From: Cyanobacteria bacterium SIG29
GTDB taxonomy: Bacteria > Cyanobacteriota > Vampirovibrionia > Gastranaerophilales > Gastranaerophilaceae
Assembly: GCA_015152515.1 (NCBI GenBank)
Contig: SUTV01000002.1
Location: 186,001 to 250,000 of the forward strand
DNA length: 64,000 nt
Direction of reading: 5' to 3'
Below the pieces are notes generated by a model, which did not search any database, was not told where the DNA came from, and saw nothing but the letters and a program-made list of their open reading frames with translations. The position numbers were made by a program, and so were the translations under genes. Position 1 is the stretch's first letter; every line of letters starts with the position of its first letter. Below, piece by piece: positions 7,097-59,030 of the stretch.

Positions 7097-8431
7097 ATGG
7101 CAGAATTGAAGGATAAAGAAGAACAATATAATGTCTTTTTAAAATATAAAGAAAAATCAGAAGAGGACACTAGCAAAATGATTATTACCCTTCGAGTAAT
7201 ATTTATTTCGTTTTTTGTTGTGCTTCTAACAATGTTTGTAATGTTTATTATTGATAATTCTTCAAATATTTCTGCTATTTTTGAAAGCTTTACTGATAAA
7301 AATCTTAGTGGGGTTAAAATAACTGAAAAGAAACCTGATTTATCTCCTTCTAAATTTAATTTTAAAATGTTGAGTAGATATCAAAATATTATGGTATTAG
7401 GTGTGGATTCAAATGGACCAAATACTTTGCCATTTTCAGGTGTTCGCTCTGATACAATACTTATTTTAAATGTTGATATTCACGGTAAAACTGTAAATGC
7501 TATTTCAATTCCAAGAGATAGCAAAGTATATTTGGCTGATGAACATGGCGTTCAAAAAATTAATGCTGCATATGCTTTGGGTGGTGTTGAATTAACAAGA
7601 AAAACTATTGAAGAAACGCTTGGCATTAAAATTCATAATTATGTTATTGTTAATGCTCAAGGTGTTAGAAAATTAATTGATGCAATAGGCGGTGTGCCAA
7701 TTTATGTAGAGCAAGATATGTTCTATCGTGATTATTCAGGTAAGTTGTTTATTAATTTGCATAAAGGTAAAAATGTATTAACTGGCGAAGAAGCCGAAGG
7801 TTATTTAAGATATAGAAAAGACTATTTGGGTGATATTGGTAGGGTTCATCGTCAGCAAAAATTCATTAAAGCATTGATTGAAAAAGTAAAATCTCCTGAA
7901 GCTTTAAGAAAAATACCTGAAGCATTGAAAATTGCGAGTTTATATACAAGAACTGATTTAAACTTATATCAAATGTCTCAATATGCTGCTATTGCTAGAG
8001 AAATTGATTTGAATAAAGTAGAATTTGTAATGTTACCAGGTGGCCCAAATAAGAAAGGAATTACAAGTTATTGGATTTTAGATCCTGAAAAAACTCAACA
8101 AGTAATTAATAGACTTATTTATAGAAAAAAATCTGATGTTGCTAAAAAAGATATAAGTGTTGGTGTTATGTACACAACATCAAGAGAAGTTGATGCACTA
8201 AATGTAAAAGAACAAATTAAAAATCTTGGCTATGATTTTAATTGTATTGGTCGTTCAACTAATATTTATCAATCTGAAATTGTTGGATATAATACAGATA
8301 TTTCAACTGATTTAATAAAATCACTACAAAAGGAAATTGAAGAAATACATAATCTTCATTATGTTCATAATCCTGTTAGAAATTATTGCAGTGATAGTGA
8401 TTTTGTAATAACTCTTGCTGATGAAGAATAA
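7097..8431 (+). CDS. LytR-CpsA-Psr (LCP) family cell-wall glycopolymer transferase with LytR_C-like C-terminus
   Basis: N-terminal TM helix; LGVDSNGPN..GVRSDTILILNVDIHGKTVNAISIPRDSKVYL; RYRKDYLGDIGRVHRQQKFI. Confidence 0.92.
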   Translation: MAELKDKEEQYNVFLKYKEKSEEDTSKMIITLRVIFISFFVVLLTMFVMFIIDNSSNISAIFESFTDKNLSGVKITEKKPDLSPSKFNFKMLSRYQNIMVLGVDSNGPNTLPFSGVRSDTILILNVDIHGKTVNAISIPRDSKVYLADEHGVQKINAAYALGGVELTRKTIEETLGIKIHNYVIVNAQGVRKLIDAIGGVPIYVEQDMFYRDYSGKLFINLHKGKNVLTGEEAEGYLRYRKDYLGDIGRVHRQQKFIKALIEKVKSPEALRKIPEALKIASLYTRTDLNLYQMSQYAAIAREIDLNKVEFVMLPGGPNKKGITSYWILDPEKTQQVINRLIYRKKSDVAKKDISVGVMYTTSREVDALNVKEQIKNLGYDFNCIGRSTNIYQSEIVGYNTDISTDLIKSLQKEIEEIHNLHYVHNPVRNYCSDSDFVITLADEE

Positions 8432-23840: not shown

Positions 23841-26153
23841 TTAATCTTCTTCAATGTATGAAACAATTTTGTTAATGTTTGTATTAAAGCCTTTAATACC
23901 TTCATTAGCAGCAGCTGTTTGAGTCGCAATGTATGTAAGAACATCTTTAATTTCATAATTATTATGTTCTTCTGACATAGCATCAATTAATTTATCAAAT
24001 TTAGTAGATAAATTATCAATTTTTTCTTCAAGAGCAACGATTTGTTTAGATTGAAAATCAATTTTTTCTTTCATAGCTGTTTCAAGCTCTGTGAATTTAT
24101 TATTATTTTCTTCTGATAATTTATCGATTTTCGCATTTAATGAATCAATATCTGGAGTTAATGCAGTATTTAACTGAACCATAATTCCTGTTAATTGACT
24201 TTTTATTTCAGAAATATCTTCAGCTGGTAAAGAAGAAACTGTCTTTTCTAATTCTGAAATTTTTTCTAATGATTCATCTGTTTCTTCTTTTAATTCATTA
24301 AGGTTTTCAGCATTAATATTTTGAGAATTTGTTTTTAAAGTAGCAATATCATTTGCCATATTGTTCAAAATACCACCTGTTGCATCAATCCATTCTGCTA
24401 AATAGATAAATGCATTATTAATATTTTGATTTGCAGTTAGGTTTGTCTGCATTAATTTAACCATTTCTGTAAGTTTTTCACTAATTAATGTGAATTTTAA
24501 ATCAGGGTTAAATTCTGCTCTTTGTATATCTAATGCTTGAATAGTATTCTTAAAAGTCTCAAGATATGATTTAAATTCTTTATTTGATTCATCTGCAGAT
24601 AGAATTAATTTGTTTGTTCTAATGCTAATGCTAGAAATATCATTATTTAATTCTTCAAATTTTTCTTTTAAAGAATTAATATCGTTTGTTGTTGTGTTAG
24701 TCTTATCATCAAGGAATTGATGTAATTTTAGGAAGTCTGATTCAATGTCTAAAAGGGTATAAATGTATGAATCAGCATCGTTTCTAGTTGAACGAGTAAT
24801 TGTATTTAATTCGCCTGATAAGTTTTCTAATTGGTCTTTGATGTTTGGTACATCTTCAATAATCTTACTTGCATTTGTTAAATTTTGAGTAAGTTCGTTG
24901 ATTTTCGTATCTAATTCATCACTACGGTTAGAAATATTATCTATTCTACTTACCCATTCATTTAATAAGCCAATATTTTCATATATCAAATCAACTTTTG
25001 AAGAAATCATATCTTCTTCAAAAGCATTATTCATTGTTGAAACTTTTTCATTGATAACGTCAACTTTTGCAGCCCAATCATTGATTGCAGATAAGTTTTC
25101 GTAAACGATATCCATTTTGTTTGTAATATCTTCAAAATCAAGTTCTTCCGAAAAAGTATTTTCAAATTTTTCTTTGATAATTGAAATTGTATTAGATATG
25201 TTTTTTGTATCTGCCATAAATGCGCTAAGTGATGCAATTTTAGATTGCATATCAGTCATAGCACCATCAACAGAGTCGATTTTTGATGTCCAATTGTTTA
25301 ATGCGCTGATGTTTTCATAAATGATATCAACTTTTTCTGCAACATCATCAAAGTCTATGCTTTCGCCAAGTCTAGCATAAACGTTTTCTATTGATTGGTT
25401 AATGTAACCAACTTTATCAATCCAAGTGCGAATTATAGATAAACTGTCATAAATTTCATCAATTTTTGATAATTGATTCGCAAAATCTTTATTTTCAAAG
25501 TCAGCTTGGAAACCTTTGAATTTTGTTTGTAATTCTTTTATTAGTGTATTTGTTTGTTTAATGCTTTTTTGTTGAACACTACTTAAATCTGCCATTATTG
25601 AACTAATTTGGTCAATATCTGGAGTGTTTTCAACTTTTGTAACCATTTGTTCTATGTATGTAGAAAGGTTTTTGTGCAAGTTTTCTAACTGATTTTCAAG
25701 TCTTTTAATTCCTTCTGAATTATCAACAACTTGAGCACCTTCTTTTATTGCAGTTAATTCTTGGTAAATATTTTCATTTGTTTTTAGTGCTAAATCTAAT
25801 TGTTGCTTTTGAAATTCTTCAAATTCTGCACTTGTAAGTGCTAGATTTTGAACATTTTGTAGGTTTTCTATGTGTTGACTAACACTGTTTGAATTTTCTT
25901 TTAATTCATTAATATCGCTAAATAAATCTTTTAATAGTGCTTCGTTGCAATTGTCAATTTGGTCTGCAAGTGTTTCAAGCTTATCTTTAATATCTTGAAA
26001 ATTTAATTTTGCTTGTGTATCAGTAATTAAGCCTTCAATTGCTTCAACAGAACTTTTAATTTCTAAAACATCTATTTCCTTAATTGCATCAAGACTATTT
26101 ATTTTTTCACAAACTTCTTCCAAAATCTCTTCGTAATTATTTTCAGTCGCCAT
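23841..26153 (-). CDS. Large coiled-coil protein with internal K[IVM]DxxYENLSxxNxW repeats (unknown function)
   Basis: 770-aa ORF, almost entirely heptad-like helix; no signal peptide or TM; four recognisable internal repeats. Confidence 0.8.
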   Translation of the reverse strand: MATENNYEEILEEVCEKINSLDAIKEIDVLEIKSSVEAIEGLITDTQAKLNFQDIKDKLETLADQIDNCNEALLKDLFSDINELKENSNSVSQHIENLQNVQNLALTSAEFEEFQKQQLDLALKTNENIYQELTAIKEGAQVVDNSEGIKRLENQLENLHKNLSTYIEQMVTKVENTPDIDQISSIMADLSSVQQKSIKQTNTLIKELQTKFKGFQADFENKDFANQLSKIDEIYDSLSIIRTWIDKVGYINQSIENVYARLGESIDFDDVAEKVDIIYENISALNNWTSKIDSVDGAMTDMQSKIASLSAFMADTKNISNTISIIKEKFENTFSEELDFEDITNKMDIVYENLSAINDWAAKVDVINEKVSTMNNAFEEDMISSKVDLIYENIGLLNEWVSRIDNISNRSDELDTKINELTQNLTNASKIIEDVPNIKDQLENLSGELNTITRSTRNDADSYIYTLLDIESDFLKLHQFLDDKTNTTTNDINSLKEKFEELNNDISSISIRTNKLILSADESNKEFKSYLETFKNTIQALDIQRAEFNPDLKFTLISEKLTEMVKLMQTNLTANQNINNAFIYLAEWIDATGGILNNMANDIATLKTNSQNINAENLNELKEETDESLEKISELEKTVSSLPAEDISEIKSQLTGIMVQLNTALTPDIDSLNAKIDKLSEENNNKFTELETAMKEKIDFQSKQIVALEEKIDNLSTKFDKLIDAMSEEHNNYEIKDVLTYIATQTAAANEGIKGFNTNINKIVSYIEED

Positions 26154-45811: not shown

Positions 45812-46225
45812 TTAGTTATAAGAAAAATATCTATCGAAATCAACATCATCAAAGTTGCATAAAAGTCTATAGACTTCATCATCTTCATCCATTTTTTGGA
45901 ATTTGAATTCATCAAATTTCCATAATTTAGGATTGATTCCAAAAACTCTTATAATTTCTTTATCTAAAAGTATTTTTAATTTCTTTTTAACAGTTTCTAA
46001 TGGCATATCTAAAGCTTTAGAAAGTTCAACAGCAGAAATGCCACCATCTCTTGAGCATTTTTCTGGTGTTAGGAACATAAGTTCTAATCCTACTTTCTTT
46101 AGATCATTATCTTCTATTATTGCCATACTCTTAATACCTGTTTTGTCATTTTCATGTTCGGCATTTTTTTTAAATACTTTAATTATTTTATTACATATAT
46201 GTTTTTTTACATAAATATTGTACAA
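45812..46225 (-). CDS. Winged-helix-like DNA-binding protein
   Basis: GLELMFLTPEKCSRDGGISAVELSKALDMPLETVKKKLKILLDKEIIRVFG; start may be internal (MAIIEDN). Confidence 0.65.
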   Translation of the reverse strand: MYNIYVKKHICNKIIKVFKKNAEHENDKTGIKSMAIIEDNDLKKVGLELMFLTPEKCSRDGGISAVELSKALDMPLETVKKKLKILLDKEIIRVFGINPKLWKFDEFKFQKMDEDDEVYRLLCNFDDVDFDRYFSYN

Positions 46226-46252: not shown

Positions 46253-49132
46253 ATGCAAGATTATAATATTTGTTACAGTTTAGATACTAATTATGTAGAA
46301 CAATTCTGTGTTTCGGTTGCTTCTATATTAAAAAATGCTAATGATAATGACAATATCAAGCTATATATTCTAGATGGTGGAATATCAAAAAAAGATAAAA
46401 CAAATATTGAATTATTAAAAAATATTAAAAGTTTCAGTATCGAATATTTTAAAATTGATAAAAAAGAATTTGCAAATTGTCCAATTTTAAATAAAAAAAG
46501 TGCAAAGCATAAAAATTATCACGTTACTTTACCAACATATTTTAGGTTTAAATTACCTGATTTATTAAAAAATTTAGATAAAGTTTTATATTTAGATTGT
46601 GACGTTATTGTAAGAACATCTTTAAAAGAATTATATGAAATTCCGTTTGAAGATAATGCTGTTTTAATGATTAAAGATGTTGAATCTAAAAAAGAAGCTA
46701 AACGTTTAGATATTAAAAATTATTTTAATGCTGGTGTAATGCTTATAAATCTTGATTATTGGAGAAAAAATAATGTTTCAAATCTTTTATTTGAATATGC
46801 AAAAAATAATCAAGATAAAATATTATGGCAAGATCAAGACATTATAAATGTTGTTTTAAATGGAAAAATTAAAAATATTGATATTAAGTGGAATTTTCAG
46901 TATTTTCTTTTTGAAAAGTTAGATGAAAATTTACTTCAAGATTGTTGCATATTGCATTTGGCTGGTCGTTTTAAACCGTGGTTAATGCCTTTTGAACACT
47001 TTGTTTATGATAGTTATTATTTTTATTTGTTATTAACTCCATACAAAAATAGATTTTTGGATTATAGGCAAAAATCAAGTGGAAAATTCTTGAAAAATAA
47101 TATTGGCGGCAGTGTAACCAATATTTTAAATGTTGCATCTGATTTTGATATTCAAAAAGTATATGAAGAAATAACTAAAAATTATGAATATACTAATAAT
47201 TTGTCAAAACAAAATGAACAAAAGATAGAACAAATTGATAATGAAATTGTAGAAAAAATTTCAGATGCTCATAGCGTGACAGATGAAAAGATTGCCAAAG
47301 TATATGAAGAAATAACTAAAAATTATGAATATACTAATAATTTGTCAAAACAAAATGAACAAAAGATAGAACAAATTGATAATGAATTTGTAGAAAAAAT
47401 TTCAGATGTTCATAGCGTGACAGATGAAAAGATTGCCAAAGTATATGAAGAAATAACTAAAAATTATGAATATACTAACGATTTGTCAAAACAAAATGAA
47501 CAAAAGATAGAACAAATTGATAATGAAATTGTAGAAAAGATATCAGATGTTCATAGCGTAACAGATGAAAAAATCGGTAAGGTATATGAAGAAATTACCA
47601 AGAATTATGAATATACAAATGATATAAAAGATGTTTTATTTACCGAAATATCTCAAAAAGAGAATTTTTTAAATGAAAAATTAATTTTAGTTGAAAAAAA
47701 TCTATTATCTGAAATAGATGATTCGCTTTTGGATTTTAAAAATGAAGTTCAATGCTTGTATGATAAAGTTGTGCTTAATGATGAAAATTTAAGACGCGAT
47801 TTTGAAGAATTAAAACAAATATTTTTAGATAAATTAAATTTTTATCAAAATCAAATAATTGAAAAATTGCGTGATGAAATAAATCAAAAAATAGAGTCTG
47901 TTAATAATATAACAGATGAAAAGATTACAAAAGTATATGAAGAAATTACTAAAAATTATGAATATACAAATGATTTGTCAAAACAAAATGAACAAAAGAT
48001 AGAACAAATTGATAATAAAATTGTAGAAAAAATATCAGATGTTCATAGCGTGACAGATGAAAAGATTACAAAAGTATATGAAGAAATTACTAAGAATTAT
48101 GAATATACAAATGATTTATCAAAACAAAATGAACAAAAGATAGAACAAATCAATAATGAAATTGTAGAAAAAATATCAGATGTTCATAGCGTGACAGATG
48201 AAAAGATTGCAAAAGTATATGAAGAAATTACCAAGAATTATGAATATACAAATGATTTATCAAAACAAAATGAACAAAAGATAGAACAAATCAATAATGA
48301 AATTGTAGAAAAGATATCAGATGTTCATAGTGTAACAGATGAAAAAATTGGCAGAGTATATGATGAAATTTCTAAAAATTATGAATATACAAACGAGATA
48401 AGAGATTCTTTAAATGAAAAAATAAATCAAAAAATCAAAGAAAATGTTGAGATGATAAATAGTGAAATATCTAAAAATCAACAAAAAATTGAAAAGGTTA
48501 ATCAAGAAAATAAAGATTTAGTAAATAGGGTTAAATCAGAAATGAGTGAAAGTATAACCAAAACTAAATCTGAAATTCAAGAAAATATTAGCAATGTTAA
48601 ATCTAATATAGAAAATGAAATACAACAAAATATTGGAAGTGTAAAAGATGAAATTCAGAATAAAATTGCTGATTTAGAAGAAGTTCAAAATAGAAAAAAT
48701 GATTTGCAATTTTCTCAAGTATATTCGTATGCAAATAATGAGCTAACTAAAATATTTGAACAAGTAAATAAAAATAATAATAATCTTGAAAATAAAATAG
48801 AATATAAAGCCCAAGAAATTTATAAAGATATTTGGAAAGAAGGTCAAAGGGTTAGCAATGTTGAACAAACTTTGTTTGATAAAGCAAATTATTCAGATAT
48901 TGCTAGTTTAGAAAAGAGTTTTGAGGAAAAATTAAAAGCTCTTAATTCTGCTAATGAAAAACAAATTGTAGATTTGATTTCAGATTTTGAAAATCAGTTA
49001 AATGAACAACGTATTAAATATGAGAAAAAGCTAATTTCAATGGAAAATACTATTTTTGATTTGGAACAAAAATATATTGAAAGTAGAAAAAATTTTTTCG
49101 TTAAAGTTATTGAAAAATGTGTGAAGAGATAA
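46253..49132 (+). CDS. GT8-like glycosyltransferase with very long repetitive C-terminal coiled coil
   Basis: ICYSLDTNYVEQFCVSVASIL, DKVLYLDCDVIVRTSLKELYEI (DxD), YFNAGVMLINLDYWR, QDQDIINVVL; then about 690 aa of coiled coil with 47-aa repeats. Confidence 0.9.
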   Translation: MQDYNICYSLDTNYVEQFCVSVASILKNANDNDNIKLYILDGGISKKDKTNIELLKNIKSFSIEYFKIDKKEFANCPILNKKSAKHKNYHVTLPTYFRFKLPDLLKNLDKVLYLDCDVIVRTSLKELYEIPFEDNAVLMIKDVESKKEAKRLDIKNYFNAGVMLINLDYWRKNNVSNLLFEYAKNNQDKILWQDQDIINVVLNGKIKNIDIKWNFQYFLFEKLDENLLQDCCILHLAGRFKPWLMPFEHFVYDSYYFYLLLTPYKNRFLDYRQKSSGKFLKNNIGGSVTNILNVASDFDIQKVYEEITKNYEYTNNLSKQNEQKIEQIDNEIVEKISDAHSVTDEKIAKVYEEITKNYEYTNNLSKQNEQKIEQIDNEFVEKISDVHSVTDEKIAKVYEEITKNYEYTNDLSKQNEQKIEQIDNEIVEKISDVHSVTDEKIGKVYEEITKNYEYTNDIKDVLFTEISQKENFLNEKLILVEKNLLSEIDDSLLDFKNEVQCLYDKVVLNDENLRRDFEELKQIFLDKLNFYQNQIIEKLRDEINQKIESVNNITDEKITKVYEEITKNYEYTNDLSKQNEQKIEQIDNKIVEKISDVHSVTDEKITKVYEEITKNYEYTNDLSKQNEQKIEQINNEIVEKISDVHSVTDEKIAKVYEEITKNYEYTNDLSKQNEQKIEQINNEIVEKISDVHSVTDEKIGRVYDEISKNYEYTNEIRDSLNEKINQKIKENVEMINSEISKNQQKIEKVNQENKDLVNRVKSEMSESITKTKSEIQENISNVKSNIENEIQQNIGSVKDEIQNKIADLEEVQNRKNDLQFSQVYSYANNELTKIFEQVNKNNNNLENKIEYKAQEIYKDIWKEGQRVSNVEQTLFDKANYSDIASLEKSFEEKLKALNSANEKQIVDLISDFENQLNEQRIKYEKKLISMENTIFDLEQKYIESRKNFFVKVIEKCVKR
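47156..47623 (+). repeat. Tandem array A: three full 141-nt (47-aa) units plus a partial fourth
   Basis: Unit starts at 47156, 47297, 47438, 47579 (exact 141-nt spacing), each encoding KVYEEITKNYEYTN[ND]LSKQNEQKIEQIDNE..EKISD.HSVTDEKI.. Confidence 0.97.
47930..48397 (+). repeat. Tandem array B: three full 141-nt units plus a partial fourth
   Basis: Unit starts at 47930, 48071, 48212, 48353 (exact 141-nt spacing). Confidence 0.97.
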
Positions 49133-49134
49133 TT

Positions 49135-50349
49135 ATGAACAATCCAAAAGTATCTATAATAGTTACATATCATAATGCACAAGATACAATCGAAAATTGT
49201 ATTAAGAGCGTTTTAAAACAAACCTTTAAAGATTTTGAATTAATTTGTATAAATAATGCATCGACTGATGAATCAGAAAAGATTGTTATTGATTTAACTT
49301 CAGAAATGGATTTTGTTAAAAGGATAAGTTTATCTTTTCAAGTTACAAATCAAGAAGCACAAGATAATGCTTTGGCAATATCATCAGGTGATTATATTTG
49401 TTTTTTAAATGCAGATAAAATTTTTGAAGAAGCTTTTATTGCAAACCTTTTTACTAAGTCATTTAGTGTGAAAAATAATTATCAAAATATTCTTTTTGAA
49501 AAAATGTATAAGAGAGATTTCTTTGAAAATAGTGATATTCTTGATGAAATAATAAAAAATAAAGTAAATTTTTATTTTCAAGAATTAAGAGATATTGTTG
49601 ATAAAAACCAAGATTATGTTAAATCAGAACTTGATAAAAATGAAAAAATAAATTTAGAAACAATAAATAATAAAATTTTTGAAATTGTTTGTAGATTTAA
49701 CCAATTAGAGAAAAATGTGTATGAAAATATTTCAAATTCATCTAATACTTTAGATGAAAAAATTGTTGTTTTTAATAAAGAACAGCGTGAAAATATTGAT
49801 AAAGTTTATGTTGATATTACTAAAATTTATGAATATATAAATAGTGAATTTAATAAAAAAGGACATGAACTTGGAAAAGTATATGAAGAAATTACAAAAA
49901 ATTATAAATATACTGAAAGCATTGTAAATACAGCAAAAGAAGATGTTTTAAATAATACTAATCAAGAAAATTCTAATTTAAAAGGTAGAGTTGAAAAAAT
50001 TGAAGCAGAATTATTGGATAGATATTCTAGCTTGAAAAAAATATTAGATTTGCAAGTAGACGAATTAGATTCTAAAATACAAGCTTTGAATGTAGAAGGT
50101 AGTGAAGATTTTACTCAAAAAGTTGAAGGTATTGATGTATCAAAGGTTTTAAATGAAAATATTGAAAATATTTATTCTCATATGAATAAAACAAATGCTC
50201 AATTTTATGAAGAATTATCTAAAATTTATAAAGAATTAAATGATAAATTAGTTGAAAAAATGAATATGCAACAAGCTTCTTTAGATTCTAAAATAGAAGC
50301 ATTGAGAGAAGAATTTGATAAAAAAATAGAAAATTTGAGAGGAAACTAA
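49135..50349 (+). CDS. Truncated GT2-like domain (probable pseudo-enzyme) fused to coiled coil
   Basis: VSIIVTYHNAQDTIENCIKSVLKQTFKDFELICINNASTDES but DxDD replaced by NADK; no acceptor domain; coiled coil with VYVDITKIYEYI and VYEEITKNYKYT. Start chosen at MNNPKVS (49135). Confidence 0.85.
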   Translation: MNNPKVSIIVTYHNAQDTIENCIKSVLKQTFKDFELICINNASTDESEKIVIDLTSEMDFVKRISLSFQVTNQEAQDNALAISSGDYICFLNADKIFEEAFIANLFTKSFSVKNNYQNILFEKMYKRDFFENSDILDEIIKNKVNFYFQELRDIVDKNQDYVKSELDKNEKINLETINNKIFEIVCRFNQLEKNVYENISNSSNTLDEKIVVFNKEQRENIDKVYVDITKIYEYINSEFNKKGHELGKVYEEITKNYKYTESIVNTAKEDVLNNTNQENSNLKGRVEKIEAELLDRYSSLKKILDLQVDELDSKIQALNVEGSEDFTQKVEGIDVSKVLNENIENIYSHMNKTNAQFYEELSKIYKELNDKLVEKMNMQQASLDSKIEALREEFDKKIENLRGN

Positions 50350-50350
50350 T

Positions 50351-51868
50351 ATGACTAAAGTTTCAATAATAATTCCATTTAATAATGTTGAAAGTTATAT
50401 TAGAGAATGCTTGGATAGTGTTTTAGCGCAAACATTGCAAGAAATTGAAATTATTTGTATAAATGATGCTTCAACAGATTCTTCTTTAGATATAGTTAAA
50501 GAATATATGCAAAAAGATTCTCGCATTAAGTTGTTAGAAACTTCTGAACGTTTAGGACAAGGTTATGCAAGAAATAGAGGCATAGAAATTGCAACAGGTG
50601 AATTTATCGGTTTTGTTGATTCTGATGATTTTATTAAACCTGAAATGTTTGAAAGACTTTATAATGAAGCAAAAAATAATGATAATGATATTACAATGTG
50701 TCAAACAGTTGAATATGATGATACAACAGGTGAATATATTCAATCAGATTATTATTCTTTAAATTTGTTGAAAGAGTTTGAAAATAGAGTTTTTAGCGCA
50801 GAGGAAACTCAAAAATATGTTTTAGATATTAATGTTGCTTTATGGAATAAACTTTATAAACGAGAATTTTTATTAGAAATTGGCGAGGTTTTCCCAGAAG
50901 GTTTTATTTATGAAGATTTACCATTTTTCTTTGGAACTTACCTAAAGGCTAAAAAAATCCAAATTGTTTGGGAAGAGTTTTATTTTTACAGAATTAACCG
51001 TAAAAATTCAACTATGAGGCAGTTTAATAATAAAATTTTAGATAGATTGCCTATGGTCTCTTTGACATATGAAAAAATGAAAAATACTCCATTCTTGCAT
51101 AATATGAAAAAATCTATACAGGCTTGGATTATTAATGATTTGTTTCATAGATATACTTTGTTGAAAGAAAATTATCAAAAAGAATTCTTCTTCTTGATGA
51201 AAAAAGTGTTTGAAAATCTAGAAATAGAAGATATTAATGATAATTATTGGAAAAGAGTATATCATTTTGAAGGTTATTTACTTGTTATGAATAATACTTT
51301 TGAAGATTTTAATCAAAAAGTTTTTAATGAGTATTTAGATATTCATAAGGTAGAAGATAGAATTCGTTCTCAAGTAGTTGAAATAGAAGAATTCGATTCT
51401 AGAATTTCTAGCATATATTCAGATATTGGAAAAAATTATAAATATACAGAAGAAATTGTCGAAAAAGTTGATAAAAAAATTACTGATGTATATTCAGATA
51501 TTGAAAAAAATTATAAGTATACAGAAGAAATTGTTGAAAAAGTTGATAAGAAGATAGTTGATATTTCTTCTTTAATTGAACATTTGCAAGAAGGTGAAAA
51601 AACTATAAAATATGATATTGCTCAAATTGGCAATATGATAAATATGGTAGGAAAAGACCTTGATAAAATACAATCAGATTTTGGTGTAAAAGTTATAGAA
51701 CTAGAAAATCAATATAAATTTTTGCTTGAGGAACAAAACAAAAAGCATGATGAAGAAATTAATCAATTAAAGCAGGAATTATTGCAAACAGAACAAAGAA
51801 TCTATGAAGAATTAACACCAAGGTGGAAAAAATTTATTAGAAAACAATTTTTAAATAGAGAGAAATAA
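50351..51868 (+). CDS. GT2 glycosyltransferase with C-terminal coiled coil (GT-A)
   Basis: VSIIIPFNNVESYIRECLDSVLAQTLQEIEIICINDASTDSS; IGFVDSDDF; two IYSDI.KNYKYTEEIVEKVDKKI repeats. Confidence 0.93.
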   Translation: MTKVSIIIPFNNVESYIRECLDSVLAQTLQEIEIICINDASTDSSLDIVKEYMQKDSRIKLLETSERLGQGYARNRGIEIATGEFIGFVDSDDFIKPEMFERLYNEAKNNDNDITMCQTVEYDDTTGEYIQSDYYSLNLLKEFENRVFSAEETQKYVLDINVALWNKLYKREFLLEIGEVFPEGFIYEDLPFFFGTYLKAKKIQIVWEEFYFYRINRKNSTMRQFNNKILDRLPMVSLTYEKMKNTPFLHNMKKSIQAWIINDLFHRYTLLKENYQKEFFFLMKKVFENLEIEDINDNYWKRVYHFEGYLLVMNNTFEDFNQKVFNEYLDIHKVEDRIRSQVVEIEEFDSRISSIYSDIGKNYKYTEEIVEKVDKKITDVYSDIEKNYKYTEEIVEKVDKKIVDISSLIEHLQEGEKTIKYDIAQIGNMINMVGKDLDKIQSDFGVKVIELENQYKFLLEEQNKKHDEEINQLKQELLQTEQRIYEELTPRWKKFIRKQFLNREK

Positions 51869-53061
51869 TGCCTGAAATTTCTGTCATAATACCTGTTTAT
51901 AATGTGGAAAAGTATCTTTCAGAATGTTTAGATAGTGTTATAAATCAAACATTTTCAGATATTGAAATTATATGCGTAAATGATGGCGCAACTGATAACT
52001 CTAGAAAAATTTTAGTTGAATATCAACAAAAAGATGAACGAATTAAAATTGTTGATAAACAAAATGGTGGCTTATCATCTGCTAGAAATGCTGGTATGAA
52101 GGTTGCAAAGGGGAATTTTATTTTCTTTGTAGATTCTGATGATTGGCTTGATTTAACTATATTAGAAAATTTACATCAAAATATAACTAAATTAAATACA
52201 GATATTTCTATGTGTGCTGTTCATCAATTTGATGAAACAACCAAAAAAATTGATGATACTAATAAATATTTTAATCTTAATTGTTTTGATAAAAGCTTTG
52301 ATAATAGAGTTTTTTCTTACAAAGATACAAAAGAATTTTTAATGAATGTACCAGTTATGGCTTGGAATAAATTATATAGAAAAAGTTTTTTGGATGAGTG
52401 TCAGGCATATTTCCCTGATGGGTTAATTTTTGAAGATGGACCATTTTTCTTTTCTATTTTCTTTAAAACTCAAAGAGTATCAATAGTTAGAAAATTTTTA
52501 TATTATTACAGAATAAACAGAAAAGGTTCTATCTTAAAAAATGCAGGTAAAAAATTCTTTGATATTATCAGGGTTGTTAATTTAATGTATGAAAATGTTA
52601 AATCAACTGAAATTTTTGAAGATATTAAAAATGAATTTTTCAATCAAAAGGCAAATGATATTTTTTACCGTTATGAATTAATTGATTTATCATTAAAAAA
52701 TTCTTTTGCAAAAGAATTTAAAAAAGAATCTTGTTTATTAGATGAAACTGTTTTTGATTTTTCTTTGTTAAATCAACTATATCCAATAACTTATAAAAAA
52801 GTGTGCGTTCTAAAAAGCTCTACAAGTGTTTTTTCTTTTTATTGTAGAAAATTTGAAAAAAGATTTATGTATAAAGTAATGCAAGTTCTATATACAGAAA
52901 AAGACATTTATTACTTCAAATTTTGGCAATTAATATTTAGATTTAAAAAAAGAGCAAATATCTGTGATATTTGGTATGAGAATGATAGAATATATTTTGT
53001 ACTTTTGAGTATAATAAAATTCAATTTTAAGTTTAGTTATTCGAAGTTAGAACAAGATTAA
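51868..53061 (+). CDS. GT2 glycosyltransferase (GT-B)
   Basis: ISVIIPVYNVEKYLSECLDSVINQTFSDIEIICVNDGATDNS; FFVDSDDW. Confidence 0.94.
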   Translation: MPEISVIIPVYNVEKYLSECLDSVINQTFSDIEIICVNDGATDNSRKILVEYQQKDERIKIVDKQNGGLSSARNAGMKVAKGNFIFFVDSDDWLDLTILENLHQNITKLNTDISMCAVHQFDETTKKIDDTNKYFNLNCFDKSFDNRVFSYKDTKEFLMNVPVMAWNKLYRKSFLDECQAYFPDGLIFEDGPFFFSIFFKTQRVSIVRKFLYYYRINRKGSILKNAGKKFFDIIRVVNLMYENVKSTEIFEDIKNEFFNQKANDIFYRYELIDLSLKNSFAKEFKKESCLLDETVFDFSLLNQLYPITYKKVCVLKSSTSVFSFYCRKFEKRFMYKVMQVLYTEKDIYYFKFWQLIFRFKKRANICDIWYENDRIYFVLLSIIKFNFKFSYSKLEQD

Positions 53062-53062
53062 T

Positions 53063-54271
53063 ATGAAAAAACCGATAATATCAGTAATAGTGCCTGTTTA
53101 TAATGTAGAAAAGTATTTATCTAAATGTTTGGATACTATACTTAATCAAACCTTTTCAAATATTGAAATTATTTGTGTTAATGATGGAAGTACTGATAAC
53201 TCTAGAAAAATTCTTTCTGATTATCAAAAAAAAGATTCACGAATTAAAATTGTTGATAAAAAAAATGGTGGTTTATCATCAGCTAGAAATGCCGGCATGA
53301 AGGTCGCTGTTGGCGAGTTTTATAGCTTTATTGACTCAGATGACTGGGTTGATGAAACAATGCTAGAAAAACTCTATAAAAATACAATGATGTTTAATAG
53401 CGATATTTCTATTTGTGCAGTTCATCAATTTGATGAAACAAATCAAAAAATAGATGATTCTAATCCATATTATACACTTGGATTTTTTGATGAAAGTTTT
53501 GATAATAGGGCTTTTTCATATCAAGATACAAAACCATTTTTGCTTGATGTATGTGTTATGGCTTGGAATAAACTTTATAGAAAAAGTTTCGTTGATGAAT
53601 GTCAAGCACAGTTCCCAGATGGTTATATTTTTGAAGATGGACCATTTTTCTTTTCAATATTTTTTAAAACAAAAAGAGTTTCGATTGTTAGAGATTTTCT
53701 ATATTATTATCGAATTAATAGAAAGGGCTCTATTGTTCAAAAAGCTGGGAAAAAGTTTTTGAATGTTATTGATGTTGTTGAAATGATGTACAACAAAATA
53801 AAAGAAATTCCTGATATTGATGATGTTAAATATACTTTCTTTAGAAAAAAAGTAGAAGATTTTATTTTTCGTTTTGAAAATTTAAATCCAAAATATAGAG
53901 TGGCTTTTGCTAGAAAATTAAAAAGGGATAGCTCTTTAGTTGATGAAAAGTTATTTCCGTTTGCTACTAAAATAGGACCTTTTGGGTATAATTACTTTTT
54001 GTTTGAAAATTTAAAAACAGGAAATGTATTATTTTATGATTTTCAAAAATTTAAATTAAAAATGATGTATAAAACAATGCAAATTTTATATTTTGAAGAA
54101 GGTGTTTATTATTTAAAATATAAGAAATTGGTATTAAGAATAAAAAAACGTCCTAAATTTTATGATTTTTATTACACTAATGATAAAATCTATGTAAGGT
54201 TACTTACAAAAATAAAATTTGAAATTCCTTTTAAATTCTCAGAATTGGAGAAATTTAACGAAAATGACTAA
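53063..54271 (+). CDS. GT2 glycosyltransferase (GT-C), tandem paralog of the preceding gene
   Basis: ISVIVPVYNVEKYLSKCLDTILNQTFSNIEIICVNDGSTDNS; FIDSDDW; shared C-terminal MYKTMQILYFE.GVYYLKYKKLVLRIKKR domain. Confidence 0.94.
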   Translation: MKKPIISVIVPVYNVEKYLSKCLDTILNQTFSNIEIICVNDGSTDNSRKILSDYQKKDSRIKIVDKKNGGLSSARNAGMKVAVGEFYSFIDSDDWVDETMLEKLYKNTMMFNSDISICAVHQFDETNQKIDDSNPYYTLGFFDESFDNRAFSYQDTKPFLLDVCVMAWNKLYRKSFVDECQAQFPDGYIFEDGPFFFSIFFKTKRVSIVRDFLYYYRINRKGSIVQKAGKKFLNVIDVVEMMYNKIKEIPDIDDVKYTFFRKKVEDFIFRFENLNPKYRVAFARKLKRDSSLVDEKLFPFATKIGPFGYNYFLFENLKTGNVLFYDFQKFKLKMMYKTMQILYFEEGVYYLKYKKLVLRIKKRPKFYDFYYTNDKIYVRLLTKIKFEIPFKFSELEKFNEND

Positions 54272-55640
54272 AGTATCAATAATAATTCCATATCAAGATG
54301 TTGAACAATATATTTCAAAATGTCTTTCATCTGTTTTATCTCAATCTTTAGATGATATAGAAATAATTTGCATTAATGATTCATCAACAGATTCATCAGT
54401 TGAAATAGTTAAAAAATATGCAAACGCAGATGATAGAATAATTATGCTTGATACAGAAAAACCATCTGGTCAATCTTATGCAAGAAATATGGGCTTGCAA
54501 ATAGCAAAAGGTGAATATATTGGCTTTGTTGATGCTGATGATTGGGTAGAACTTGAAATGTTTGAAAAGCTTTATAATAAAGCAAAATCTGTTGATGCTG
54601 ATATTACAATGTGCCCTGCTCAATTGTATGATGATAAAACTCAAGAAATTTATACAGATGAATATTATAGTTTGAAATCTTTAGAAAAATACGCTGATAG
54701 TGTATTTAATGGTGAAATAACAAAAAATGAAATTTTAGATATAAATGTAGTTTTATGGAATAAAATTTATAAAAAAGAATTTTTAGATAATATTCAAGCT
54801 AAGTTTCAAGAAGGTTTTATTTATGAAGATATGCCATTTTTCTTTGAAACTTATCTAAAAGCAAATAGAATAAATGTTTTATGGGAAAACTTGTATTATT
54901 ATCGAAAAAATCGCAGTTTTTCTACTATGCAAAAAGCAAATAAAAAAGTATATGACAGGGTAGATATGGCTGCATTAACTTTTGATATTTTAAAACAAGC
55001 ATCTTTTTATCAAGAAAGACAAGATGATATTCTTCGCTGGATTGTTGATGACGTGTTTCACCGTTATACTTTGCTTGAAGATAAATATTATGAAGAATAT
55101 TATGAGAAAATGCGTTCATTTTTCATTGATTTGAACTTAAATGAAGAGCAAAAGGATTATTTAAGAACAAGTTATTGTTATGATGAATTTTGTTGTATTT
55201 TAGAAAATGACTATTATGGTTTTTGGAAGTTTGTAATAGAAAAATATAGAACCGCTAATAAGCGCATAAAATATACTGAACATAAATGTAATGAAGATGT
55301 CACAACTATTAAAAATTATATTGAAGAATATAAACAACAAGTAAAAGAAGAAAAAGAAGCAATTGTTGCGTGGTGGCAAAATTATACTTTTCAAGAAGTT
55401 GAAAAGAAAAAATATGAAATGCAAAAGTGGCGTAATGATTCAATGCGAGAGCAAGAAGAAAAATTAACAGCTGATTATAAGTGGAAACTAGAAGAACAAA
55501 AGCAACATTTTATGCAATCTTTACAAGAACAAAAATATTATTATGAAAATCATTATTTCTTGGTTAAAATCATGTTAAAAGCATATAAAAAGTTAGATCA
55601 AATTCATAATAAATTTAAGAAAATTTTGAAAAAGAATTAA
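54264..55640 (+). CDS. GT2 glycosyltransferase with C-terminal coiled coil (GT-D)
   Basis: VSIIIPYQDVEQYISKCLSSVLSQSLDDIEIICINDSSTDSS; IGFVDADDW; long charged helix; start chosen at MTKVS (54264), overlapping the upstream stop. Confidence 0.92.
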   Translation: MTKVSIIIPYQDVEQYISKCLSSVLSQSLDDIEIICINDSSTDSSVEIVKKYANADDRIIMLDTEKPSGQSYARNMGLQIAKGEYIGFVDADDWVELEMFEKLYNKAKSVDADITMCPAQLYDDKTQEIYTDEYYSLKSLEKYADSVFNGEITKNEILDINVVLWNKIYKKEFLDNIQAKFQEGFIYEDMPFFFETYLKANRINVLWENLYYYRKNRSFSTMQKANKKVYDRVDMAALTFDILKQASFYQERQDDILRWIVDDVFHRYTLLEDKYYEEYYEKMRSFFIDLNLNEEQKDYLRTSYCYDEFCCILENDYYGFWKFVIEKYRTANKRIKYTEHKCNEDVTTIKNYIEEYKQQVKEEKEAIVAWWQNYTFQEVEKKKYEMQKWRNDSMREQEEKLTADYKWKLEEQKQHFMQSLQEQKYYYENHYFLVKIMLKAYKKLDQIHNKFKKILKKN

Positions 55641-55648
55641 GGCGAATA

Positions 55649-57157
55649 ATGACAGAAAAAGATGAACAATATTATAAATTAGAAAAACAACATAAAGAAG
55701 AATTAGAAACACAAAAACGTTTTTATGAAAGTGAACTTTCTTTGTTGAAGTCTAAATTTGAATATGAAAAATCTAAATTAAAAATCGAATATGAAAATAA
55801 TGAATTGAAATTAAGACAAGAGCTTGAAGAATATTTCGGTTCTAAAAATTATAAAGATATGCAAAATATAAAGGATTATTATGAGTCAGAAATAAAATCT
55901 CAACGAGATTGGTATGAGGTTGAAATTGAAAGACGTAAAAAAGAAACTGAAACTTGGCATATAAATAATTTGGAAGTAAAAACAGCCGAATTAATTAAAA
56001 ACTATGAAGAAATGCTCCAAGCTCAAAAAGACAAGTTTGATGTAGAAATGCAGGTTTTAACTGAACAAATTATTGAACAAAACAGATATTATGAAGAGCA
56101 ATTAAAACCTTATAAACGAATTATTAATTTTAGAAAAAAAGTAGAGAAAAAATTTAATTTAGAAAAAAAATCACAAGAAGTTTTAATTGAAAATAATATA
56201 GAAACAGAAGAACAAAATTTTTCTTCTGATCCAAAAGTTTCTGTAATTTTGCCTGTTTATAATGTTGGCAAATATTTAAGACAAGCTTTAGATAGTTTGA
56301 TAAATCAAACATTGAAAGATATTGAAATAATTTGTGTGAATGATGGTTCAACAGATGATAGCTATGAAATTTTAGAAGAATATAAGGAAAAAGATTCTAG
56401 AATAAAAGTTATTCATAAGGAAAATAAAGGTACGGGTGCAGCAAGAAATGATGGTTTAAGGCTTGCAACAGGTGAATGTATTGGTTTTGTTGACCCAGAT
56501 GATTGGGTTAAACCAAATATGTTTGAGCGTCTTTATTCTTTAATTAAAGAAAAAGATTTAGATATTGCTATGTGCATGCCTGATGGATATGATGAAAAAA
56601 ATGGAGTAAATGCACCATTCCCATATTTTGTGGACGCAAATTTTGAAAATATTATTGATGATAGAATTTTTAACTGGCGCGATTTGTCACCATTTAGTTA
56701 TCCAATGTGCGTTTGGAATAAGCTTTATACTAAAAAATTATTTGATGAACATAATATAGAATTTGCTGAAGGTCTTGATTTTGAGGACCATAAAGTTATT
56801 TTTGGTACACTTTTAACTGCTCAAAAAATGTTTTTCATTAGAGAAAAACTTTATGTGTATAGATTTAATCGTGAGGGTTCTGTTTTAACAGATAATAATA
56901 GACGATTAATAGATCATATTGAAATATTTAATATTGTTGAAAATTTAATGAAAGAAACAAATACTTTTAATGTTTTAAGAAATGATTTTCTAACATATAA
57001 AATTCATAACATATTATATTATTACAGCATGATAAAAGAAGAATTTAAGTCTGAATATGAAAAATGTATGATTAAATCTATTAATGATATGAATTTAAGT
57101 TTTGAAGAAGCAAAAATGCTTTGTGAAAAATATCCAGAATTAAAATCATATATTTAA
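55649..57157 (+). CDS. GT2 glycosyltransferase with N-terminal coiled coil (GT-E)
   Basis: About 170-aa N-terminal coiled coil, then VSVILPVYNVGKYLRQALDSLINQTLKDIEIICVNDGSTDDS; IGFVDPDDW. Confidence 0.93.
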   Translation: MTEKDEQYYKLEKQHKEELETQKRFYESELSLLKSKFEYEKSKLKIEYENNELKLRQELEEYFGSKNYKDMQNIKDYYESEIKSQRDWYEVEIERRKKETETWHINNLEVKTAELIKNYEEMLQAQKDKFDVEMQVLTEQIIEQNRYYEEQLKPYKRIINFRKKVEKKFNLEKKSQEVLIENNIETEEQNFSSDPKVSVILPVYNVGKYLRQALDSLINQTLKDIEIICVNDGSTDDSYEILEEYKEKDSRIKVIHKENKGTGAARNDGLRLATGECIGFVDPDDWVKPNMFERLYSLIKEKDLDIAMCMPDGYDEKNGVNAPFPYFVDANFENIIDDRIFNWRDLSPFSYPMCVWNKLYTKKLFDEHNIEFAEGLDFEDHKVIFGTLLTAQKMFFIREKLYVYRFNREGSVLTDNNRRLIDHIEIFNIVENLMKETNTFNVLRNDFLTYKIHNILYYYSMIKEEFKSEYEKCMIKSINDMNLSFEEAKMLCEKYPELKSYI

Positions 57158-57211: not shown

Positions 57212-57742
57212 ATGGACATTTCATCAAATAGCTTAAATCAACCCGTAAGTTTTTATAATAAAAATACGGGAAATATGATAAATACGGCAATAAATGAAGA
57301 CAATCATTTATATGCTAGTAATTTTTTTGCTGCAGAAAATCCAATAACAAAAGAAACAAAAAAAGCAACTAAAAAGAAAAGACATAGTAAAAGATTAAAT
57401 ACTATGGATACTGATTACTTGCCAGATGAAACAAGAGAAGTTGAAATTAAAAAGGTAGATAACTTCTTTGTTGATAGTGAAAAACCGAGTGTAGTAACAA
57501 GGTTTAAAAAAGCAATGGAATATTTTTTTACAGTAACTCCATTAGTTAATTATTTTTTCTTGAAACAAAAAACAAAAAAAATTCAACAAACAGTACAAAC
57601 TTTAAATGATATAAATCAAAATGTAGACGAATTATTAAATGCCGTTGTTCCATATGGAGAGGAAACAACTCTTTATACGAATATAGCGAAAAATTTGACA
57701 GATGCGGCTACTATTTTAGGAAAAGCAAACAAAGAATTATAA
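57212..57742 (+). CDS. Hypothetical protein (176 aa)
   Basis: Intact ORF between the GT cluster and ftsZ; no recognised domain. Confidence 0.6.
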   Translation: MDISSNSLNQPVSFYNKNTGNMINTAINEDNHLYASNFFAAENPITKETKKATKKKRHSKRLNTMDTDYLPDETREVEIKKVDNFFVDSEKPSVVTRFKKAMEYFFTVTPLVNYFFLKQKTKKIQQTVQTLNDINQNVDELLNAVVPYGEETTLYTNIAKNLTDAATILGKANKEL

Positions 57743-57863
57743 AAACATAAACATATATTAATATTTCATGGTTTTTTTCTTTACTATTTATTTGATTTAC
57801 AATACTATGTTCATGTAAGTACGAAATATAGCAATGTAAATAGAATAAAAAGAGGGCGCATAA

Positions 57864-59030
57864 GTGGAAAATTTTGTTCCAGAGATTTTTGGCAAGAAAG
57901 ACAATAACCAAACTCCAACACAAGCTGGTGGTACACCTGCAGATATTAAAGTTATCGGTGTAGGCGGTGGCGGTGGAAACGCTGTAAACCGTATGATTAA
58001 AGCTGGTTTGGCTGGCGTGGAATTTTGGGCTATGAATACAGATGTTCAAGTTCTCGAAATGTCATTAGCTGAAAATAAAATAAGAATAGGAAGTAAATTA
58101 ACAAATGGTTTAGGCGCAGGCGGAAACCCTGAAAAAGGTGAAAAATCTGCTGAAGAAACTAGAGATGATATCGTAAATGCTATCGGAAAAGCAGACATGG
58201 TATTTGTTACAGCCGGCATGGGCGGTGGTACAGGTACAGGTGCAGCTCCAGTTGTAGCTAAAATTGCTAAAGAATTAGGTGCTTTAACTATTGGTGTTGT
58301 TACAAAACCATTCAGCTTTGAAGGTAAGAAAAGAATGAATCAAGCTCTTCAAGGTCTTGAAAAATTAAAAGAAACAGTAGATGCTTTAATCGTTATTCCT
58401 AACGATAAATTATTAGAAGTAGTTGACCGTAGAACAACAATGAGAGAAGCTTTCCAAGTTGTTGACGAAGTTCTTTTAAGAGGTGTTCAAGGTATTTCTG
58501 ATATCATTACTGTTCCTGGTATGATTAACGTTGACTTCGCAGATGTAAGAAGCGTAATGGAATCATCAGGTTCTGCATTAATGGGTATTGGTCGTGGTAC
58601 TGGCGAAGGCAGAGCGTTAGAAGCTGCTAAAGCGGCTATTAATTCTCCATTGTTAGAAACTTCAATCAATGGTGCTTCTGGTATCATTATGAATGTTACT
58701 GGTGGACCAGACATGACATTATACGAAGTTACAGATGCTGCTCAAGTTATTCATGATGCTGTATCTGAAGATGCTACAGTTCACTTTGGTTCTGTTATTG
58801 ATGATAGAATTCAAGGAGAAATTCAAATTACGGTTATTGCTACTGGTTTTGAATTAAAGAAAAATGAAGTTGAAAGATTTAATCAACAACCTGAAGAAGC
58901 AACAAGATTAAAACCTGAAGATTTCTTCCAAGGTGTTAATTTAAATGCTCCATCAACTCCAAAAATTTCTAAATCAGCATCTGATTTCGCTAATAATATT
59001 ATCGATATTCCAGACTTTTTAAAGAAATAG
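57864..59030 (+). CDS. ftsZ: Cell division protein FtsZ (GTG start)
   Basis: [54 protein letters not shown]. Confidence 0.98.

Follow-up and report, generated by a model that had tools for sequence, protein, structure and literature searches.

Introduction

A few systems of Enterobacteriaceae are known to use coiled-coil stalks that keep glycan-assembling enzymes at a distance from the membrane. In WbdD, the coil is a ruler by which the length of the O-antigen is set (PMC5082667, PMC11231755). A tail predicted to form an amphipathic membrane helix is also found at the C-terminus of LgtC (PMC9952996).

The locus described here occupies part of a 64,000-nucleotide stretch, referred to throughout as the window (positions 186,001 to 250,000 of contig SUTV01000002.1, assembly GCA_015152515.1). 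Its host is a Gastranaerophilales MAG from a genus near Ca. Avigastranaerophilus (assembly of 1.54 Mb, 82.5% complete), and related contigs belong to Candidatus Gastranaerophilales, including Ca. Avigastranaerophilus faecigallinarum. The Gastranaerophilales are little-studied gut bacteria, a lineage that is almost uncultured. Among the papers searched, none relevant dealt with tandem-repeat coils in glycosyltransferases or with the glycosyltransferases of Gastranaerophilales. New here are a repeat core that is modular across a whole genus, empty sites of the island that carries it, and the move of a stalk between two enzymes.

Results

Locus and distribution

The GT8-coil gene (Table 1) comes first in a conserved series of seven glycosyltransferase genes, the last of which lies next to a small ORF and ftsZ. 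The left-edge ORF directly adjoins the ftsZ-side ORF in four genomes of this genus (L126, L127, L128 and L133), and the seven-gene cluster is therefore an accessory island; the operon is present in most, not all, species of the genus. No such island lies upstream of ftsZ in stretches from 18 other genera, one of which (L117) has GT2 genes at that place that look unrelated (34-39% identity). At E <= 0.01, the repeat was present in 35 of the 41 genomes of the genus, and a phylum-wide sample of 386 genomes (E <= 1e-5) contained it in this genus only. A family sample added one sister-genus genome with a 48-residue version (G052, L111), together with two weak matches. The sister-genus GT8-coil gene with 48-residue units (L111:4742-7072) sits in a four-glycosyltransferase cluster, and its ftsZ is found on a different contig.

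Table 1. Coordinates, in the window, of the glycosyltransferase island and of the parts of the GT8-coil gene.
Feature	Position	Strand	Match or remark
Conserved divergent small ORF	45812..46225	-	left edge of island; no Pfam match
GT8-coil protein, 959 aa	46253..49132	+	PF01501, 1.5e-47; GT8 domain, helical stalk with two repeat arrays, basic tail
GT8 catalytic domain, residues 5-244	46265..46984	+	LgtC match, 3.2e-28
Array A, three full 47-aa units	47156..47578	+	units at 47156, 47297, 47438
Truncated cap unit of array A	47579..47623	+	closest to unit 48212
Non-repeated helical interval	47624..47929	+	homologue in nearest relative G003 (L035), with different flanking units there (by eye from the sequences)
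Array B, three full 47-aa units	47930..48352	+	units at 47930, 48071, 48212
Truncated cap unit of array B	48353..48397	+	
Distal helical stalk	48398..49081	+	homologous stalk end fused to a GT2 domain in seven other species
C-terminal basic amphipathic tail	49082..49129	+	SRKNFFVKVIEKCVKR; putative membrane anchor
GT2 with short coil	49117..50349	+	one core motif copy, KVYEEITKNYKYTE, at about 49876-49917
GT2 with coil (GT2_50351)	50351..51868	+	two 25-aa core units, 51413-51564; basic C-terminal tail RWKKFIRKQFLNREK
Two GT2 proteins without repeat core	51868..54271	+	51868-53061 and 53063-54271
GT2 with fixed-length coil (GT2_54264)	54264..55640	+	strongly basic amphipathic C-terminal tail; internal control, length equal in close species
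GT2 with N-terminal helical extension	55649..57157	+	
Conserved right edge	57212..59030	+	small ORF 57212-57742 and ftsZ 57864-59030

Judged from its motifs, the GT8 domain of the first gene is intact. The PF01501 profile match spans the domain and includes the DxD and HxxGxxKPW motifs; DCD (residues 115-117) and most of HLAGRFKPW (235-243) are invariant across 18 aligned orthologues. Structure comparison matches the fold to WbbM, LgtC and GlyE, and the enzyme probably builds surface sugars. Some 660 residues of predicted helix follow the domain.

Elsewhere in the window, 7097-8431 (+) encodes a LytR-CpsA-Psr family protein (PF03816). Proteins of this family attach glycopolymers to peptidoglycan in other bacteria, and this one is a possible outlet for cell-surface glycan in this lineage.

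Repeat arrays

Both arrays consist of three full 141-nt units and a truncated fourth, the cap, which retains the first 45 nt and is divergent afterwards. An earlier note on this DNA had placed eight unit starts, all of them correctly, and its 141-nt spacing is exact within either array. It had also described 47579-47930 as a divergent interval of 351 nt; the span is right, but the cap accounts for its first 45 nt, and 306 nt are unique sequence. TRF scores of 818 and 838, against 50-234 for all other rows in the window, exclude chance as the origin of the arrays. Pairs of full units show 2-15 differences over 141 nt, and 14 of the 21 variable columns fall at third codon positions (binomial p = 0.0018), which indicates purifying selection on the encoded unit sequence.

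How the two arrays are related proved less simple than the copying of one array as a block, which had been suggested from variants common to units 47438 and 48212. These variants are real, but they are limited to the unit's last 41 nt, where the two differ at 3 sites and 47438 differs from the other units at 6-8. Unit 47438 falls with its own array over the first 60 nt (2 differences, as against 3-6 to the other). Register-matched units, at 9.7 differences per unit, are barely closer than neighbouring registers (10.5-12.5), and cap 47579 differs from unit 48212 at 1 of 45 positions and from cap 48353 at 8 of 45. Since units group by array at their 5' ends, 47438 pairs with 48212 at the 3' end and cap 47579 also goes with 48212, the pattern points to repeated exchange and not to a single block copy. 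Read in this way, arrays A and B are a patchwork that would require at least two exchanges, and the block copy is only partly right. The different units flanking the interval homologue in G003 suggest that 47-residue units spread to both sides of it after the lineages split.

The core module

Each unit, in any gene or species, contains a 22-residue core close to TDEKISKVYEEITKNYEYTNEL, and core units occur in neighbouring GT2 genes as well as in the GT8 gene. Asp2, Lys4, Val8 and Thr19 of the core are conserved even though the search pattern did not demand them. Core identity between genes is 61%, that of the following 11 residues 17%; variable spacers set the unit length at 25, 33, 40, 44, 47 or 51 residues, with other values rarer. 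Successive cores are spaced in phase with a turn of 3.65 residues (p = 0.0018 over 29 distinct spacings). Between close orthologues, differences in length had the same tendency, not significantly (p = 0.16).

A lattice composed entirely of 7s and 11s was considered as a rule and rejected: it fits 25, 33, 40, 44, 47 and 51, and fails for 48 (sister genus), 27 (once) and 19 (GT8 of one subclade). Given the 19-residue repeats, the phase lattice describes a tendency, not a strict rule.

Two further repeat types were observed. The GT8 of the subclade just mentioned (L055:2300-4102 (-), L053:11276-12943 (-)) carries 19-residue repeats, SIYENVNKTIExxIKETC, which are not of the 33/47/51 type, and the stalks of three close species in it differ by 95, 114 and 209 residues, equal to 5, 6 and 11 units. 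The distal GT2_50351 stalk at L056:9395-11761 (-) contains a second repeat family of 22 residues, DDVYTYINQxTDETVEYQNKTK, which is expanded in G020 relative to G036.

The stalk as a probable helical rod

Hydrophobicity along the window stalk has a Fourier peak at 3.630 residues (its power is 38.8, where the 95th percentile of shuffles is 6.4), in agreement with an earlier hand count of about 13 hydrophobic core positions per 47 residues (3.615). One period, 3.63, runs through the arrays, the interval and the distal stalk, and nearly all relatives give 3.60-3.70; a period of 3.6-3.7 is thus sustained along the rod, as in hendecad-type coils. An undistorted alpha helix has a turn of 3.63 residues (PMC9858780), and a coil with this period should be nearly straight. 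Single-chain AF2 models are almost all helix, with low confidence (array pLDDT about 32-46 in the full model; mean pLDDT 50.7 for a helical fragment modelled on a repeat-only alignment), so the idea of helical repeats compatible with a continuous coil is supported by both approaches. We infer a coiled-coil oligomer and not a lone helix.

A 770-residue protein that looks all-helical, encoded at 23841-26153 (-), has diverged internal repeats (VDIIYENISALNxW...) with a period of 3.40-3.49, unlike the glycosyltransferase stalks.

Stalk length among relatives

Copy number is not invariant among relatives; it differs between related species. The counts come from MAGs, one genome per species, so that change is seen between species. 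Among pairs with catalytic domains of at least 92% DNA identity, GT2_50351 stalks differ by 51 residues (G035/G027), 88 residues (44+22+22; G036/G020) and 131 residues (G013/G019), and GT8 stalks by 51 residues (G012/G014). The GT2_54264 coil has a length difference of 0 in comparable close pairs (e.g., G035/G027, G036/G020 and G012/G014), and length variation therefore belongs to the array-bearing stalks. A repeat-bearing ORF runs off the end of its contig in 15 of the 36 fetched loci, which leaves the unit numbers of those assemblies incomplete. Across species, stalks range from about 250 to 1025 residues, or 37-154 nm when fully extended at 0.15 nm per residue. The lengths of GT8 and GT2_50351 stalks are not correlated (rho -0.33, p = 0.20), and the comparison thus gives no sign that the two proteins pair.

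Exchange of the stalk between enzymes

Homologues of the stalk end and tail of the window GT8 are carried by GT2_50351, and not by GT8, in seven species. If the GT8 of these genomes is complete, it ends just past one core and has no basic tail. Where GT8 lacks the tail, the GT2 bears one of the GT8 type. Among complete GT8 or GT2 proteins with a stalk, nearly all end in a basic amphipathic tail of conserved type, and the basic residues gather there only. The tail of the window GT8 matches the GT2 tail of G032 (45%, 2.7e-31) and has no match to the window's own GT2 tail. In the GT2_50351 tree, the GT2-borne stalk has a single origin (support 97/97); a tree of another island gene did not resolve the seven genomes as one group.

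On the evidence of these homologies, the stalk has been exchanged between enzymes. The GT8/GT2 junction lies near the core, which would fit recombination through repeated DNA. Together, the differing numbers and sizes of blocks and the presence of the stalk on another enzyme suggest that length can be changed by recombination. From its composition, the tail may bind the membrane.

Discussion

Our preferred reading, to which we lean with some reserve, is that of a coiled-coil stalk of variable length, tethered to the membrane, which would position the glycosyltransferases of the operon and bring them together. A long, nearly straight coiled coil would link the N-terminal GT8 domain to a C-terminal, basic amphipathic tail that binds the membrane, thereby holding the catalytic domain at a distance. 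The 22-residue core, shared with the neighbouring GT2 enzymes, would be a phase-keeping coiled-coil module and would most likely mediate both self-association and association between these enzymes, which could then act jointly, as a single assembly, at the inner face of the cytoplasmic membrane. The DNA of the core is near-identical between units and may serve as a recombination joint, through which units would be gained, lost and exchanged; the whole stalk with its tail would have moved once, from the GT8 gene to the GT2 gene or in reverse. Glycogenin also has a GT8 fold, and a glycogenin-like self-glycosylation of the core tyrosines may be entertained as a remote idea.

A first alternative, doubtful in our estimation, is that the stalk is a permissive linker whose copy number drifts by repeat recombination, neutrally or nearly so, with no functional consequence of its length. 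As such drift would predict, species vary in unit type, in copy number and even in the enzyme that bears the stalk, and the length differences between close species are not significantly in phase. Drift sits poorly, however, with a core sequence under purifying selection, with core spacings that are in phase, with a tail that is kept or transferred along with the stalk, and with a sibling coil of fixed length.

Secondly, the stalk might be an evolvable molecular ruler in the manner of WbdD and WbbB, its length setting the distance of the catalytic domain from a membrane-bound polymerase, and hence glycan chain length, with unit number as a heritable dial. We regard this as rather unlikely. The order of parts is that of WbdD, in which an N-terminal catalytic domain is followed by a coil and a C-terminal amphipathic membrane helix (PMC5082667, PMC11231755). 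The units keep phase, array-bearing stalks vary in length while the sibling coil is constant, and the LPS pathway is present in the genus (LpxC in 37 of 40 genomes, Wzy_C in 39 of 40); the failure to find LpxC in this genome, which is 82.5% complete, is probably due to incompleteness given that genus-level frequency. Against a ruler, a Pfam search of the island genes found no chain-terminating methyltransferase or kinase domain, the catalytic domains being GT8 or GT2 only, and Wzt_C (PF14524) was not found in this 82.5% complete genome. GT8 is, to our knowledge, not a known chain terminator. The extended stalks are also much longer than the coil of about 20 nm in WbdD. In its fullest form, the same idea would have unit number set surface-glycan architecture, with lineages altering it by gaining or losing units and by moving the ruler between the operon's enzymes, a proposal for which we would claim only a small likelihood.

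Thirdly, the stalks could be amphipathic 11-mer helices lying on the membrane, as in apolipoproteins or perilipins, and not coiled coils. The near-11-residue periodicity and a weak Pfam Apolipoprotein match (5.5e-7, 29.9 bits) speak for this. The stalks nevertheless have a negative net charge (-3 to -8 per 100 residues is typical) and a narrow hydrophobic stripe (26-37% hydrophobic, as in coiled coils), with basic residues confined to the tail. Membership of PF01442 was rejected on score (the cut-off is 90 bits) and on charge, and we hold membrane-lying helices to be improbable. Finally, that a metagenome assembler created the unit number or the array duplication is highly improbable: contigs of many relatives do break within arrays, yet the longest exact repeat is 90 nt, each unit can be told apart by variants of its own, and independent assemblies contain similar arrays well within long contigs, one of them of 220 kb (L032).

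Comparison with known systems

Bacterial GT8 enzymes of PF01501 (LgtC, 1g9r, 3tzt, GlyE 5gvv, WbbM 6u4b) share the fold and motifs of the domain studied here. In LgtC, the tail is joined directly to the domain, whereas hundreds of helical residues intervene in the present protein. The hendecad rods FilP and Scy (PMC9858780) are similar in their period near 3.63-3.67, very little supercoil and great length; they are, however, Gram-positive cell-division or cytoskeletal proteins with alanine-rich cores, in contrast to the Tyr- and Asn-containing core found here on glycosyltransferases.

A close likeness also exists to WbdD and WbbB, which combine an N-terminal cytoplasmic catalytic domain, a long coiled coil and a C-terminal amphipathic membrane helix in a glycan-assembly cluster (PMC5082667, PMC11231755), an order of parts that is read here from sequence. 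The differences lie in the domain, which is GT8 or GT2 and not a kinase/methyltransferase or other known terminator; in the stalk, which is several times longer and made of near-identical tandem units in variable number; in the exchange of the attached enzyme; and in Wzt_C, absent from the hits in this genome. The layout is comparable to the Enterobacteriaceae stalks, but built of exchangeable tandem units that vary among closely related gut bacteria. If stalk length matters for the glycan, these species would offer a natural length series in which the control of polysaccharide assembly by spacing could be tested, and the arrays would give gut bacteria a route to vary their surface.
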